From an uncultured Pelagibacteraceae bacterium (lineage in GTDB: Bacteria; Pseudomonadota; Alphaproteobacteria; Pelagibacterales; Pelagibacteraceae): a DNA stretch of 64,000 nucleotides. Under the pieces are notes generated by a model. It had not been told where the DNA came from. It was given only the letters and a program-made list of their open reading frames with translations, and ran no database searches. Each line of letters begins with the position of its first letter. Positions within the stretch are counted from its first letter, which is position 1. The DNA lies in contig CACNXC010000005.1 in assembly GCA_902624315.1 (NCBI GenBank), positions 1-64,000 of the forward strand. Reading direction: 5' to 3'. A program made the translations under genes and the position numbers. This document shows, piece after piece, positions 34,682 to 42,432 of the stretch.

Positions 34682-36233
34682 TAAGAATTTGAACAAAATC
34701 TTAATAATAGATTTTGGTTCACAATTTACTCAGTTAATAGCCAGGCGAATAAGAGAGTCAGGAGTTTATTCCAAAATTATAAGTCATAAAAAGGTTAAAA
34801 ATAAAAATATTGATAATTCTATTAAAGGAATAATTTTATCAGGTGGACCATTGAATGTTTACCAAATTAATAAATATTCTTTCGATAAAAGGATTATCGA
34901 AAATCAAATACCAGTCTTAGGTATTTGTTTTGGTCATCAAATTTTATCAAAACTTAATGGTGGCAGAGTTAAACAATCAAAATATAGAGAGTTTGGATTA
35001 GCAAATATTCGCAAAAAGAGGGAAAGTATTTTGACAAAAAACTTCTTTAATAAAAAAAATATTAATAAAGTTTGGATGAGTCATGCTGATCAAGTTTCGA
35101 AACTTCCCAAAAATTTTAACGTTATTGCCTCAAGTCAAAACTCGAAATTTGCTATTATCGAAAATAAGAAAAAAAATTTTTATGGTGTCCAGTTTCATCC
35201 CGAAGTTACCCATACAGAAAATGGGAAAAAATTAATAAATAATTTTATATTCTTGATATGTAAAATTAAAAGAAATTGGTCTTCAAAAGATCAGAAGATT
35301 AAATTGATAAAAGATGTTCAAAATTTAGTCGGTAAAAATAAAGTAATATGTGCATTATCAGGTGGAGTTGATAGCAGTGTTGTCGCTCAACTATTGAATA
35401 AAGCAATTGGTAAAAAATTATTTTGTATCTTTGTTAACACGGGTCTTCTTAGAAAAAATGAGGAGATACAAGTAGTTAAAACTTTTAAAAAAAAATTGAA
35501 AATAAATCTAATTTATGTGAATGCAGAGAATGAATTTTTGAGAAAGCTCAACAATGTTTCTGACCCAGAGAAAAAAAGAAAAATAATTGGAAATTTATTT
35601 ATCAAAATTTTTGAAAGATACGCTAAAAGAATAAAAAATGTAAAATTTTTAGCACAAGGAACGCTCTATCCAGATCTTATTGAAAGTAAGTCAGTGACTG
35701 GAAGCCAAACCTCAAAAATCAAATCTCATCATAATGTAGGTGGTTTACCAAAGAAAATGAAACTTAAATTGGTAGAACCATTGAAATTTTTATTTAAAGA
35801 TGAGGTAAGAAAATTAGGATTAGAATTAAAACTTAGTAAAGAAATTATTTCAAGACATCCGTTTCCAGGTCCTGGACTAGCGATCAGAATGCCTGGCATT
35901 ATTACTAAAGAAAAAATCAAAATTTTAAAAGAAGCTGACAATTATTTTATTCAAGCTTTAAGAGAGCACAATCTATATAATAAGATTTGGCAAGCCTATG
36001 CTGCATTGCTTCCAGTCAAAACAGTAGGTGTCATGGGTGATAATCGAACTTATGAATATTTGTGTTTACTAAGAGCAATTACATCTGAGGATGGAATGAC
36101 AGCTGATTTTTATGACTTCAAAAAATCATTTATTCAAATGATTTCAAATAAAATTGTAAATAGCATAAGAGGAGTAAATAGAGTAGTTTATGATGTTACA
36201 TCTAAACCGCCGAGCACCATTGAGCTTGAATGA
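34671..36233 (+). CDS. guaA: GMP synthase (glutamine-hydrolysing)
   Basis: Converts XMP to GMP with ATP and glutamine. The 520-residue enzyme has an N-terminal class I glutamine amidotransferase (nucleophile in GICFGHQ, then [11 protein letters not shown] with catalytic His/Glu), the ATP pyrophosphatase P-loop [13 protein letters not shown], and the C-terminal dimerisation domain ending [15 protein letters not shown], the invariant GuaA terminus. It works directly after guaB, two genes upstream. It overlaps panB by 4 bases. Confidence 0.98.
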
Positions 36234-37003
36234 AAAAAATAAAAAAAATAATAAATAAAAAAAATAAATCTAAAATTGTTTGTCTTACAGCTTACTCAAA
36301 AAATATTGCTGAAGAAGTTGACAAACATGTTGATATTATCTTGGTTGGAGATTCGCTAGGTTCAGTATTGTACAATTATTCAACTACTAGAAAAGTTACT
36401 CTTACAGAAATGATTAATCATTCTAAGAGCGTAAGACTTGGGGTAAAAAAAAGTTTAATGGTTGTTGATATGCCATTTAACACCTATTCAACATCAAACG
36501 CTGCTTTAAAGAATGCTAAAAAAATAATTAAGGAAACCAAATGTGATGCAGTGAAGTTAGAAGGTGGAAAAAAAATAATCCATCAAATTAAACTATTAAC
36601 TAAAAACAAGGTTCCTGTGATGGGACATCTTGGATTATTACCCCAATCGACCAAAGGCAAGTTTAAATCTAAAGGAAAGACCACTAAAGAGATCAATCAA
36701 TTAATTAATGATGCTTTATTACTTCAAAATAATGGAGTTTTTGCAATTGTCCTGGAGTGTATAAAAACACCAATAGCAAAACAAATTACAAAAAATTTAG
36801 ATATCCCTACAATTGGAATTGGCTCATCTGTTCATTGCGATGGTCAGGTTCTTGTTACGGATGATTTAATTGGTCTAAACCAAACAAAAATAAAATTTGT
36901 TAAACAATTTCTCAACGTAAAAAAATATATCAATGCTGGACTAAGAAAATATGCTTCAGAGGTAAGATCTAAGAAATATCCAACTAAAAAACACTCGTAT
37001 TAA
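36230..37003 (+). CDS. panB: 3-methyl-2-oxobutanoate hydroxymethyltransferase
   Basis: Adds the methylene-THF one-carbon unit to ketoisovalerate to form ketopantoate, the first step of pantothenate/CoA synthesis. The 257-residue barrel has [27 protein letters not shown] (Mg-binding Asp), [17 protein letters not shown], and GHLGLLPQS with the [16 protein letters not shown] substrate loop. panC, panD and panE are not adjacent. It could draw on the C1 pool served by gcvTHP. It overlaps the guaA end and the convergent terC end. Confidence 0.94.
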
Positions 37004-37724: not shown

Positions 37725-38696
37725 ATGAAATTCTTAAAATATTTATCAACTATTTTAGTTTCATTAATTTTGTCAATTAATCTTGCAGTTGCAGAGAAAT
37801 GGGACATGGCTCTAGCTTATGGAGCGGGGAACTTTCATTCTGCAAACGCAGCTGAATTCGCAAAAAATGTTACTGAAAAAAGTGGTGGCAAGTTAACAAT
37901 TGTAACACACCCTGGTGGTTCATTGTTTAAGGGTGGAGAAATTTTTAGAGCAGTAAGAACAGGTCAAGCTCAAATTGGTGAGAGATTTATGTCAGCTTTA
38001 GGAAAAGAGGATCCACTCTTAGAAGTAGACTCTCAACCATTCTTAGCAACGTCTTACGCTGATGCAATGAAGTTATATAAAGCGTCAAAAGATGAAATCG
38101 TTAAAGGATTAGACGAGAAAGGCTTAGTATTTCTTTATGCTGTGCCGTGGCCAGCACAAGGCTTGTATAGTAAGAAGGAAATTAACTCTGTCGAGGATTT
38201 AAAAGGTCTTAAATTTAGAGCTTATAATTCTGCTACTATTAGAATTGCCGAGCTAACAGGAATGGCTCCTACAAAAATAGAGGCTGCTGAAATTAGTCAG
38301 GCGTTTTCTACAGGTGCTGTAGAAAGTATGATCACTTCACCAACTACGGGTAAAAACTCTAAAATTTGGGAGAATGGTGTGAAATATTTTTATGATATTG
38401 CAGCTTGGTTTCCAAAAAACATGATAATTGTGAATAAAGATGCTTGGAATAAATTAGATCAGGCAACTAAAGATCTTGTTATGAAACAAGCAGCTTTAGC
38501 TGAAAGAAAAGGCTGGCAATTATCAAAACAAGGGAACGTTGGTGATAAAAAAGCTTTAGCTGATGCTGGTATGGTAGTCGGTAAAGTAAATGCACCACTA
38601 CAAGCTCATTTTGAAAAAGTTGGAGAGACTATGGCTAAGGAATGGTCTCAAAAAGCTGGTTCAAGAGGAGCTGCTGTTTTATCAAGTTATAAATAA
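37725..38696 (+). CDS. dctP: TRAP transporter solute-binding protein (DctP family)
   Basis: A 323-residue periplasmic binding protein with signal peptide (residues 1-23, ending NLAVA). The DctP family core includes GKLTIVTHPGGSLFKGGEI, AVPWPAQGLYSKKEI, LKGLKFRAYNSATIRIAE (the ligand carboxylate-binding arginine) and FSTGAVESMITSP. Likely ligands are small organic acids; the exact one cannot be read. It has a good ribosome site (ggagg) and possible promoter TTGATA at 37672. A hairpin follows, then the permease genes, consistent with excess binding protein. Confidence 0.95.
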   Translation: MKFLKYLSTILVSLILSINLAVAEKWDMALAYGAGNFHSANAAEFAKNVTEKSGGKLTIVTHPGGSLFKGGEIFRAVRTGQAQIGERFMSALGKEDPLLEVDSQPFLATSYADAMKLYKASKDEIVKGLDEKGLVFLYAVPWPAQGLYSKKEINSVEDLKGLKFRAYNSATIRIAELTGMAPTKIEAAEISQAFSTGAVESMITSPTTGKNSKIWENGVKYFYDIAAWFPKNMIIVNKDAWNKLDQATKDLVMKQAALAERKGWQLSKQGNVGDKKALADAGMVVGKVNAPLQAHFEKVGETMAKEWSQKAGSRGAAVLSSYK

Positions 38697-38710
38697 TTCA
38701 ATTCTTAAAA

Positions 38711-38741
38711 TTAAGGCCACTTAAAATTTGAGTGGCCTTAA
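38711..38741 (+). terminator. Hairpin between TRAP binding protein and permease genes
   Basis: TTAAGGCCACT (38711-38721) and AGTGGCCTTAA (38731-38741) form a perfect 11-base-pair stem with a nine-base loop and only a few following T's. It sits 7 bases before the dctQ ATG. It may act as a partial terminator, a 3' mRNA stabiliser for the dctP message, or a structure restricting dctQ translation. Confidence 0.8.
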
Positions 38742-38747
38742 ATTGTT

Positions 38748-39230
38748 ATGTTAAAATCACTAGATAGAAATTTAAATAAACTCTATAAATTTTCAGGTTA
38801 TGTTGCTGCTTTTTTCTTAATTTTAGTAGCAGTTTTTATTCTTATTGGTATCTCATCAAGAATATTTGGTTTTTATATAAGAGGTCTTGCTGAGTATTCA
38901 GGTTATTGTATGGCTGCTGCATCTTTTTTTGCGTTAGCGTACACATTTGTAGAAGGTGGACATATTAGGATTACGCTTTTCTTGGAAAAATTATCAGGTG
39001 TAAAGAAAAGATTTATTGAGATTTGGTGTTTAAGTGTGGCGAGTTTCTTTTCGGGATATTTAGCTTTTTACTTTATTAAAATGCTAATTATTTCCTATAA
39101 ATTTCAAGAACGAAGTGAGGGTGCAGATGAAATATTAATTTGGATTCCTCAATCAAGCGTAGCTATCGGATCAACAATATTTTTTATAAGCGTTTTTCAT
39201 CAATTTATTTTAACAATCAAAAAGCATTAA
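38748..39230 (+). CDS. dctQ: TRAP transporter small permease subunit (DctQ)
   Basis: A 160-residue protein with four hydrophobic helices. The DctQ pattern is seen in FSGYVAAFFLILVAVFILIGISSR, LAEYSGYCMAAASFFALAYTFVEGGHIRI and the terminal helix FISVFHQFIL. DctQ pairs with DctM to form the sodium-driven membrane unit that takes substrate from DctP. It is directly followed by dctM with no gap. The hairpin upstream leaves little room for a ribosome site. Confidence 0.93.
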   Translation: MLKSLDRNLNKLYKFSGYVAAFFLILVAVFILIGISSRIFGFYIRGLAEYSGYCMAAASFFALAYTFVEGGHIRITLFLEKLSGVKKRFIEIWCLSVASFFSGYLAFYFIKMLIISYKFQERSEGADEILIWIPQSSVAIGSTIFFISVFHQFILTIKKH

Positions 39231-40541
39231 ATGACCGAAATACTTTTAACAATCTTCTTTATCAGTGTTTTACTATTTTTTTTAGGATCTGGAATTTGGG
39301 TTGCTTTAAGTATGATTGGTGTATCAGCTATTGGTATGATGTTATTTACCTCAAGGCCAGTTGGTGATGCAATGGCTACAACGATATGGGGCACATCATC
39401 TTCATGGACACTTACCGCATTACCACTATTCGTCTGGATGGGTGAGATTTTATTTAGGACAAAGCTTTCTGAAAATTTATTCAAAGGATTATCTCCTTGG
39501 ATGCAAAAATTACCAGGTGGTTTAATCCATGTTAATGTTGTTGGATGTGCATTATTTGCAGCAATTTCTGGCTCTTCAGCAGCAACTGTTGCAACAGTGG
39601 GCAAGATGTCTATTCCTGAATTAAGAAAAAGAAATTATCCAGAAAAAATCTTACTAGGTAGTTTGGCAGGTTCAGGAACATTGGGTTTGCTGATACCACC
39701 GTCAATTATATTGATTATTTATGGAGTTGCTGTCCAAGAGTCTATAGCAAAATTATTTATTGCTGGGATTATTCCTGGGATAATGATTGCATTAATATTT
39801 ATGTCTTACGTAATTATCTGGTCTTTGATTAATAAAAAATCTATGCCAAAAATTCTTGAGGAATACTCAATTTTGGAAAAAATAAAAAGATCAAAACAAC
39901 TTTTGCCAGTTATTATTCTAATATTAGCCGTTATTGGATCGATATATACAGGGATTGCAACAGCTACTGAAGCAGCTTCATTAGGAGTAGTTGGGGCATT
40001 GATATTATCTTACTTTCAAAAAAGTTTAACATTAAAAACTTTTAAATCCTCTTTACTTGGAGCAACTAAAACCTCTTGTATGATCGCTTTTATTTTAGCA
40101 GGTTCAACATTTTTATCTTTAGCAATGGGATTCACTGGATTACCAAGAAATCTAGCTCTCTGGATCCAAAATATGGAATTATCTCCATATGTTTTGATTT
40201 TTGTTTTAATGATCTTCTATATAATTTTAGGAATGTTTCTTGATGGAATTTCAGCAGTTGTTTTAACAATGGCAATCATCGAGCCCATGATTAGACAAGC
40301 AGGTTTTGATATGATTTGGTTTGGTATTTTTTTAGTCATTGTTGTTGAGATGGCACAAATTACTCCACCTGTTGGTTTTAATCTATTTGTACTTCAAGGT
40401 ATGGCAAAAAAAGATATGGGATATATTGCCCGAAGTGCATTCCCATTATTTCTACTGATGGTCCTAGCAGTTATTTTAGTCGTAATCTTTCCAGAAATAG
40501 CTTTATGGATGCCAGAACAGATGATTAAAAATATAAATTAA
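39231..40541 (+). CDS. dctM: TRAP transporter large permease subunit (DctM)
   Basis: A 436-residue, about 12-helix permease. Family signatures are SGSSAATVATVGKMSIPELRK, GSLAGSGTLGLLIPPSI, the second hairpin ATATEAASLGVVGALILS, and ITPPVGFNLFVLQGM. It moves the substrate by sodium symport. It is fused in transcription to dctQ, with the ATG immediately after the dctQ stop. It overlaps the end of the convergent TPR gene by 4 bases. Confidence 0.96.
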   Translation: MTEILLTIFFISVLLFFLGSGIWVALSMIGVSAIGMMLFTSRPVGDAMATTIWGTSSSWTLTALPLFVWMGEILFRTKLSENLFKGLSPWMQKLPGGLIHVNVVGCALFAAISGSSAATVATVGKMSIPELRKRNYPEKILLGSLAGSGTLGLLIPPSIILIIYGVAVQESIAKLFIAGIIPGIMIALIFMSYVIIWSLINKKSMPKILEEYSILEKIKRSKQLLPVIILILAVIGSIYTGIATATEAASLGVVGALILSYFQKSLTLKTFKSSLLGATKTSCMIAFILAGSTFLSLAMGFTGLPRNLALWIQNMELSPYVLIFVLMIFYIILGMFLDGISAVVLTMAIIEPMIRQAGFDMIWFGIFLVIVVEMAQITPPVGFNLFVLQGMAKKDMGYIARSAFPLFLLMVLAVILVVIFPEIALWMPEQMIKNIN

Positions 40542-41125
40542 TATTTTGATTTTTCTCCAGCTATGACAGCTTTTAACTGATCGTATTCTTTACACTTACA
40601 GCTTTTTAAAACCTCAAGTCTTTCAACTGCAAGATTATGTCTGTTAGTTGCAACATAGAGCTCACCAAGATACTCATTTATACCTATATGCTCCGGATCA
40701 ATAGCTAGACCTTGAAGGTAATACTTCTCACCATTTTCAAAATCGCCCAACTTTCTAGTTGTGAAACCTAAATAGTTCAGAGTATCAGGTTTATTAGGTT
40801 TTCTTTTATTTGATTTAATTAAAAGTTTTTGTGCTTTTGCATACTTTTTTTTTGCTTTTTTCAATTTACCTTTTTTCTCAAAATATTTTGCTGACCTTAT
40901 AGCGGTAACCGCTCTATCATAACTCGTTCTAATTTTAGTTGGACCATCATCCGCACCAGATTGTCCTCCTGATCCTCCACTGCTAGACGATTCGCCTCCG
41001 CCGCCGCCGCCTCCGCCGCCGCCGCCTCCGCCGCCGCCGCCGCCTCCGCCGCCGCCGCCTCCTGCAGCTAAAAGATTTCCTGTTACAAGAAATATTACAG
41101 ATAAAACTAAGATTATTTTTTTCAG
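40538..41125 (-). CDS. Exported TPR protein with polyglycine linker; apparent CTG start
   Basis: The frame is open from CTG at 41123-41125. That codon gives (L/M)KKIILVLSVIFLVTGNLLA, a good signal peptide like that of the paralogue just upstream. It continues with 23 consecutive glycines, a Ser/Gly linker, and a TPR body nearly identical to the paralogue (YLQGLAIDPEHIGINEYLGE). The full product is 195 residues. No ATG, GTG or TTG in this frame allows the signal peptide; the first TTG is internal at 40864. CTG or another non-standard start is therefore inferred, or the ATG was lost and the gene is decaying. Export and protein binding are likely; the partner is unknown. Confidence 0.7.
   Translation of the reverse strand: MKKIILVLSVIFLVTGNLLAAGGGGGGGGGGGGGGGGGGGGGGGESSSSGGSGGQSGADDGPTKIRTSYDRAVTAIRSAKYFEKKGKLKKAKKKYAKAQKLLIKSNKRKPNKPDTLNYLGFTTRKLGDFENGEKYYLQGLAIDPEHIGINEYLGELYVATNRHNLAVERLEVLKSCKCKEYDQLKAVIAGEKSKY
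40994..41062 (-). repeat. GGA/GGC polyglycine tract, 15-base period
   Basis: Sixty-nine bases of G/C-rich repeat, read in the gene direction as GGA followed by four (once five) GGC codons, repeated. It encodes 23 glycines and is a striking GC-rich island in a roughly 30% GC background. The period-15 pattern suggests growth by slippage of a 15-base unit. Length may vary among cells or strains. Confidence 0.95.
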
Positions 41126-41138
41126 ACTAAATGAAAGA

Positions 41139-41630
41139 TTAATATTTTGATTTCTCGCCAGCTATAACAGCTTTTAATTGATCATACTCTTTGCAATTAC
41201 AACTTTTTAAAACCTGAAGTCTTTCGACTGCAAGATTATGCCTGTTTGTAGCTACGTACAACTCACCAAGATATTCATTAATACCTTTGTGTGTTGGATC
41301 AACAGCTAAACCTTGAAGGTAGTACTTCTCACCATTCTCAAAATCCCCAAGTTTTCTAGTTGTAAAACCTAGATAGTTTAAAGTGTCAGCTTTATTAGGT
41401 TTTTTTTTATTAGATTTAATTAAAAGTTTTTGCGCTTTTGCATAACTTTTTTGTGCTTTTTCTAGCTTTCCCTTTTTTTCATATCTTTTAGCGCTCTTTA
41501 TATATGTAACAGCTTTCTCATAATTTGTTTTAGTTGATGATGACCCACCATCACCACCAGATGAACCTGCTGCAATGGCATTTGTGGAGATAAAAAATAG
41601 GATTGATAAAGACAAGATAATTTTTTTCAT
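41139..41630 (-). CDS. Exported TPR protein, paralogue of the polyglycine protein
   Basis: A 163-residue protein with signal peptide (residues 1-20, ending TNAIA) and a short Gly/Ser linker (AGSSGGDGGSSSTKTN). Two or three tetratricopeptide-like units follow: AQKSYAKAQKLLIKS, DTLNYLGFTTRKLGDFENGE and NEYLGELYVATNRHNLAVER. The body is about 85-90% identical to the downstream copy, a tandem duplication. Two cysteines (SCNCKEYDQ) near the end are conserved in both. It is probably periplasmic; function unknown. Confidence 0.85.
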   Translation of the reverse strand: MKKIILSLSILFFISTNAIAAGSSGGDGGSSSTKTNYEKAVTYIKSAKRYEKKGKLEKAQKSYAKAQKLLIKSNKKKPNKADTLNYLGFTTRKLGDFENGEKYYLQGLAVDPTHKGINEYLGELYVATNRHNLAVERLQVLKSCNCKEYDQLKAVIAGEKSKY

Positions 41631-41631
41631 A

Positions 41632-42411
41632 TTAAATAAATTTTTTCATTTTGTTTAAAGTTTTTAATTCTAAGCCATTTTCAACTAAATTTTCTCTTAT
41701 TGACTTAGCTGTTGCTAATGAACTTAGATTGTCTCCATGTATACAAACAGAATCGATTTCACAAGGTATTTGCTTCCCACTGTGACAATTAAGCGACTGA
41801 GTTTGAACCATTTTTAATACGTGTTTTTTTGCTTGTTCGGGGTCAGTTATTAGCGCATGAGACTTCTTTCTTGATACAAGATTGCCATCATCCTCATAAT
41901 TTCTATCAGCAAAAATTTCACAGGCAAATTTCATGCCTAATTTCTTTGCTGCTTCTTGCATTTTTGATCCAGTAGGCACGAGATATATTATGTCTTTGTT
42001 AATATCCTTAATAGTTTTAGCTAAAATTGTAGCCAACTCAATATCCTCACATGCCATATTATTTAAGGCTCCATGAGGTTTTACATGAGATACACTTTCC
42101 CCATGAGAAGAAGCTATTTTTTGAAGAATTTCATATTGATCGATTATAAGTTTTTTTATTTCACTTTCAGAAAGATTCATTCTTTCTCTGCCAAAATTTT
42201 CTGGATCATTAAAGGAAGGATGTGCGCCAATACTCACTCCATTTTTTTTCGAAATTTTTACTACTTGATTCATGGTTTGCTCATCTCCGGCGTGATAGCC
42301 ACAAGCAACATTGGCTGAATTTACGATTTCTAATAAATCTGGATCATACTTATTTGAGTGATGTTTTGATTTTTCACCTAAATCACAATTTATATTAATT
42401 TCCATACTCAT
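41632..42411 (-). CDS. pxpA: 5-oxoprolinase subunit A (LamB/YcsF family)
   Basis: With PxpB and PxpC it forms the prokaryotic ATP-dependent 5-oxoprolinase, turning pyroglutamate into glutamate. About 259 residues; the family signature is NINCDLGE at the N-terminus, with NVACGYHAGD, SIGAHPSFNDPENFGRE, VKPHGALNN and VCIHGDN. The ATG at 42411 (or 42405) puts the family start correctly; the upstream ATG at 42429 would add residues that do not fit. It diverges from pxpBC with almost no intergenic DNA, an unusual split for this complex. Confidence 0.93.
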   Translation of the reverse strand: MSMEININCDLGEKSKHHSNKYDPDLLEIVNSANVACGYHAGDEQTMNQVVKISKKNGVSIGAHPSFNDPENFGRERMNLSESEIKKLIIDQYEILQKIASSHGESVSHVKPHGALNNMACEDIELATILAKTIKDINKDIIYLVPTGSKMQEAAKKLGMKFACEIFADRNYEDDGNLVSRKKSHALITDPEQAKKHVLKMVQTQSLNCHSGKQIPCEIDSVCIHGDNLSSLATAKSIRENLVENGLELKTLNKMKKFI

Positions 42412-42427
42412 AATTTGTAAGTATAAC
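42399..42427. promoter_or_regulatory. Overlapping divergent promoters of pxpA and pxpB
   Basis: TATAAC at 42422-42427 with TTTCCA at 42399-42404 is a plausible rightward promoter. Its start would fall on the pxpB ATG (42433). On the other strand TATACT (42425-42420) would start transcription close to the pxpA ATG at 42411. The two -10 elements overlap, implying leaderless mRNAs and mutual exclusion. These are inferred by eye; -35 matches are weak. Confidence 0.4.
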
Positions 42428-42432
42428 ATGGC

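Follow-up and report, generated by a model that had tools for sequence, protein, structure and literature searches.

The window is a stretch of 64,000 nucleotides from an uncultured Pelagibacteraceae bacterium, whose genome (1.13 Mb in 27 contigs) is of the Pelagibacter (SAR11) type; the GC content of the window is about 0.30. On its minus strand, two adjacent genes encode secreted TPR proteins, designated copy 1 (TPR1) and copy 2 (TPR2), and the operon order is likely pxpA > TPR1 > TPR2. The features of the locus are:

41632..42429, minus strand: pxpA (LamB/YcsF-type 5-oxoprolinase subunit A), the upstream gene on the same strand, assigned from sequence and conserved context
41628..41630, minus strand: ATG start of copy 1, one base past the pxpA stop (TAA T ATG)
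41139..41630, minus strand: copy 1 (TPR1), a secreted TPR protein of 163 aa, assigned from Pfam TPR_12/TPR_2/TPR_8, orthologues, context and AlphaFold2
41126..41138, minus strand: spacer of 13 nt from the copy-1 stop to the CTG
41123..41125, minus strand: proposed start codon CTG of copy 2, from comparison of the homologous position in relatives
41063..41125, minus strand: copy-2 signal peptide, LKKIILVLSVIFLVTGNLLAA, which aligns with that of copy 1 and is under purifying selection
40994..41062, minus strand: Gly tract of copy 2, 23 codons in GGA-(GGC)4 units
40538..41125, minus strand: copy 2 (TPR2), 195 codons, a secreted TPR paralogue with a Gly-rich N-terminal linker
37725..40541, plus strand: dctPQM-like TRAP transporter, the convergent neighbour of copy 2

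The names pxpA and dctPQM are those that we presume from knowledge of these families. Copy 1 ends at TAA 41141-41139 and copy 2 at TAA 40540-40538. On re-reading the sequence, the coordinates given for both copies in a preliminary description of this DNA proved correct, and the tandem secreted pair recognized there is real: the two genes are paralogues, copy 1 with an ATG and copy 2 with a putative start at CTG 41125-41123. Copy 1 is the orthologue of the single-copy family member that lies beside pxpA in most Pelagibacter loci examined, and TRAP genes adjoin the TPR gene in many but not all relatives. Elsewhere in the window (36229-36269), a short tandem repeat of A/T only (AATAAAAAA units) lies close to where one ORF ends and the next starts.

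Copy 2 has an open frame from TAG 41164 onwards. Only three codons are conceivable starts in this frame, namely CTG 41161, ATT 41143 and CTG 41125. The frame was scanned up to the TAG and, as had been described, no ATG, GTG or TTG lies ahead of CTG 41123-41125; none occurs between TAG 41164 and TTG 40864, the first in-frame TTG, which is past the signal peptide and the Gly tract. Because of this, the ORF list, which admits ATG/GTG/TTG starts, gives copy 2 as a stub of 108 aa from TTG 40864, without signal peptide or linker. By inspection, the spacer between the copies contains no Shine-Dalgarno-like motif. RNA structure around the copy 2 start showed nothing beyond shuffled sequences (z 0.42), and the unpaired fraction was unremarkable.

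The named relatives are nearly all Pelagibacteraceae. A scan of genome assemblies found the same TPR1/TPR2 pair in four single-cell assemblies of this family, AH-324-B22 (L062), AH-326-O21 (L063), AH-287-F17 (L064) and AH-326-F07 (L065). The pair lies in each between pxpA and dctM, with pxpA>TPR1>TPR2 facing dctPQM, and copy 1 begins with ATG. At the start position of copy 2, L063 carries a CTG and, as in the window, no ATG, GTG or TTG ahead of the signal peptide; L062, L064 and L065 carry a TTG. An ATG start for copy 2 in other strains, the counterexample named in the preliminary description, was looked for and was found in none of the five species with the pair. The CTG as putative start is well supported by this comparison. 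Across 131 complete family sequences, some of which are the same gene counted twice, ATG stands at the start of the signal peptide in 126, the exceptions being the five copy-2 genes; in L153 and L174 a TTG precedes the ATG by a few codons. An ATG start is a common trait of the family and not a defining feature of the protein. With CTG or TTG in all five species, copy 2 is therefore a variant member of a known protein family, distinguished by its unusual start codon.

It is hardly credible that an error of sequencing, amplification or assembly produced the CTG or the Gly tract. Assembly is difficult in GC-rich repeats, and the count of 23 glycines is that of the assembly sequence and not of reads. 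On the other hand, the CTG and TTG codons of the four relatives occupy the same position, and Gly-rich linkers with other lengths and codon mixes are present in all of them.

The pair was found only in a small lineage, and copy 2 is absent from most of the genus. A search of 312 genus genomes at least 82% complete for the copy-2 start pattern, with up to 3 mismatches, so that divergent starts could be missed, recovered the pattern in the window genome only. Another tandem layout occurs in L080 (4409-4933), where the family member has directly behind it a distant TPR paralogue (46% identity) that starts at an ATG of its own.

The window has a spacer of 13 nt between the copy-1 stop and the YTG, one more than the 12 nt of the four relatives. 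The pattern in the pair genomes is TAA-TCT-nnn-nTT-AGT-YTG-ARA, and the four codons between TAA and YTG are variable. In L062-L065 the two copies share a frame that is interrupted by one TAA only; in the window the spacer shifts the frame. Since these codons vary and the frame is not kept, the start would be the YTG and not an earlier codon. A later near-cognate start is disfavoured because the ATA three codons after the YTG is ACA in L064 and L065. It is considered unlikely that translation starts at ATT 41143 or CTG 41161, or that readthrough or frameshifting fuses copy 2 to copy 1, even though both codons are in frame in the window (the ATT overlaps the copy-1 stop) and the arrangement after a single TAA in the relatives would suit a fusion. 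In the relatives the ATT is out of frame and the TAA, 12 nt ahead of the YTG, ends the frame, so that the earlier starts are not conserved, and a fusion with copy 1 would bury the signal peptide. Simple readthrough of the TAA into a fusion was ruled out, since the 13-nt spacer puts the copies of the window genome in different frames.

The TPR part of copy 2 has dN/dS values of 0.03-0.15 (ten pairs, dS 0.14-0.47), about as low as those of copy 1 (0.00-0.09). Over the 23 codons of the signal-peptide segment, the proteins of the two CTG species are identical and their DNA differs by synonymous changes only. Copy 2 is under purifying selection and its frame is open in all five pair genomes. Selection on the signal peptide, together with the variable codons between TAA and YTG, indicates that the signal peptide is translated, from the YTG or a codon near it. 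The notion that copy 2 has lost its ATG and is decaying into a pseudogene draws on the missing ATG/GTG/TTG at the signal-peptide start, on the large simple repeat and on the restricted occurrence of copy 2 within the genus. It is very improbable, given that the non-ATG pair persists in five species with an open frame and low dN/dS, and that copy 2 keeps the conserved residues of the family and its C-x-C motif. Because the pair is conserved in relatives and under purifying selection, copy 2 is neither a pseudogene nor an assembly error, and these two possibilities raised in the preliminary description are contradicted.

A tree built from 122 TPR domains unites the five copy-2 sequences in a single clade (100/97) that excludes copy 1; the copy-1 sequences sit among the single-copy orthologues. 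The tree has 130 columns, so its deeper forks are unresolved. The duplication therefore predates the five species. Within a genome, the divergence between the copies peaks in the first third of the TPR domain (0.62-0.70 nucleotide identity, against about 0.85 later). Copy 2 of the window resembles its own copy 1 in short patches only, which could be gene conversion. Between the two CTG species, the signal-peptide DNA is 97% identical and the TPR parts 90.5%. Because of this difference, the CTG may have a single origin, one event spread by descent or recombination and not two.

The Gly tract consists of 18 GGC and 5 GGA codons arranged as GGA-(GGC)4, GGA-(GGC)5, GGA-(GGC)4, GGA-(GGC)4 and GGA-GGC. 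The length of 69 bases and the background of about 30% GC were described correctly; the tract itself, described as near 100% GC, is 93% (64 of 69 bases). Its reported 15-base periodicity is present, with a self-identity of 0.96 at lag 15 versus 0.86-0.90 at most other triplet lags. In the other ORFs of the window, GGC accounts for 115 of 1103 Gly codons and runs of Gly reach 4 at most; the tract is far outside chance for the DNA of the window. The longest uninterrupted Gly run of copy 2 is 8 in L062 and L064, 13 in L065, 14 in L063 and 23 in the window. Codon mixes differ among the species, and every length difference keeps the frame. Slippage or unequal exchange plausibly alters the length of the linker. 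Of the two effects once proposed for slippage, variable linker length agrees with the runs of 8-23 between species, whereas variable expression is not supported, the units being whole codons: changes in the tract are always in frame, and therefore the linker can change in length with no on/off switch. That the tract is a contingency locus tuning linker length within the population is quite improbable. The near-perfect 15-nt units and the lengths that differ between species would fit such a locus; however, each species is represented by one sequence, the differing codon mixes fit slow drift, and a repeat made of triplets cannot shift the reading frame.

In bacteria, CUG is an uncommon start, and the initiation complexes that it forms have a lower stability than those with AUG, GUG or UUG (PMC11497404). 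Reinitiation is steeply dependent on distance; it works at very short range and is almost gone near 20 nt, with a small set of E. coli gene pairs around +10 nt (PMC10666635). Given this steep fall, the spacer of 12-13 nt is at the permissive edge. A YTG at this distance past the copy-1 stop, with no Shine-Dalgarno-like motif, fits a weak translation coupled to that of copy 1. The initiator tRNA was also considered. The tRNA-fMet of the window genome (G000:C4 137-167, L170; also L169 and L171) has A29-U41 where E. coli has G29-C41, the first of three G-C pairs. A different anticodon-stem variant of the initiator tRNA relaxes CUG discrimination in E. coli (PMC11497404). Of 58 genomes taken from across the class, 34 have the arm sequence of the window genome, which is apparently a class-wide trait. 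Being so widespread, A29-U41 cannot explain the CTG of this lineage, and a special initiator tRNA was ruled out as its cause. The literature on initiator tRNA variants and SAR11 start codons gave no direct match.

Taken together, copy 2 is best explained, with a probability of about 0.74, as a functional and selected secreted TPR paralogue with a Gly-rich linker and a weak YTG start, probably coupled by reinitiation. Copy 2 would have arisen beside copy 1 before five known Pelagibacter lineages split, and its start would be the YTG that occupies the position of the ancestral ATG, a CTG in the window and one relative and a TTG in three. After terminating on TPR1, ribosomes probably start again at this weak codon 12-13 nt further on, and consequently the level of TPR2 would be below that of TPR1. 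Both proteins would be exported by their signal peptides, and in TPR2 a long flexible Gly/Ser linker, which may drift in length by whole-codon repeat expansion, would precede the TPR domain.

Good support for CUG starts is rare in bacteria, and CTG-started genes are missed or shortened by gene callers that admit ATG/GTG/TTG only. The start of copy 2, a TTG in some species and a CTG in others, is a natural test of CUG initiation. The locus also shows that a streamlined genome retains a paralogue with a long GC-rich Gly tract. A more speculative and rather doubtful extension is that this SAR11 lineage keeps the weak UUG/CUG start under selection, so that inefficient reinitiation would set the ratio of two secreted scaffold proteins, while the repeat tract would tune the linker within populations. 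In that case, natural CUG initiation would be conserved in a free-living bacterium.

Both copies are above the Pfam TPR gathering cut-offs (TPR_12, 32.3 and 32.9 versus 30.1; TPR_2, 29.3 and 31.3 versus 27). The helix-turn-helix repeat fold was assessed on copy 1, whose AlphaFold2 model is a seven-helix TPR domain (pLDDT above 90) behind a disordered N terminus; copy 2 would presumably have the same fold. Foldseek with the copy 1 model returned generic and designed TPR proteins only, the best matches being consensus TPR proteins, and a sequence search of solved structures returned generic TPR proteins only. A C-x-C near the C terminus is present in all 106 distinct ATG-started members and in all five copy-2 proteins; this invariant motif is a possible disulfide or metal site. 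Copy 2 thus has the signal peptide, TPR domain and C-x-C of the Pelagibacter pxpA-linked secreted TPR family, a SAR11 protein that is widely conserved. Type I signal-peptide cleavage of copy 2 is expected after the AA, as predicted by inspection, and the product is probably periplasmic. The peptide YYLQGLAIDPEHIGINEYLGELYVATNR is unique to copy 2. In L172, L173 and L176, from another SAR11 genus, neither pxpA nor the TRAP genes are neighbours of the TPR gene; its surroundings in L172 include folE- and hisI-like genes, named by eye. Neither pxpA nor TRAP defines the role of the TPR protein, since TRAP genes are often missing and the L172 gene lies elsewhere. The best guess, from the TPR fold, is that both copies may serve as periplasmic scaffolds that bind peptides or proteins.

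Among known systems, TPAT (TatT of Treponema) is likewise an exported TPR protein encoded beside a TRAP transporter (PMC5812351). However, its gene is inside the TRAP operon, whereas the genes here are on the opposite strand after pxpA; TatT has thirteen helices versus seven and is a lipoprotein that binds the TRAP solute-binding protein, whereas neither copy has a lipobox Cys at the end of the signal peptide. A TatT-type TPAT was ruled out by the operon layout and the missing lipobox, and TRAP genes are absent alongside in many relatives. The MamA and PilW proteins of NCBIfam show a weak TPR-level similarity, far under the curated cut-offs (34.2 versus 200 and 24.2 versus 154, respectively). 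The single-copy pxpA-linked TPR protein shares with copy 2 the signal peptide, the Gly/Ser linker, the seven-helix TPR domain, the C-x-C and the locus, and differs in its ATG start, short linker and single copy. One such member, in G212 (L004; 1498-2100, minus strand), has at the same locus a long Gly/Glu/Ser linker (GGGE repeats) after the signal peptide. Unlike copy 2, it is single, its ATG overlaps the pxpA stop, the linker is broken by Glu, and it falls outside the copy-2 group in the tree. This is apparently a separate linker expansion, and it shows that neither a second copy nor a non-ATG start is needed for a long Gly/Glu-rich linker to arise.
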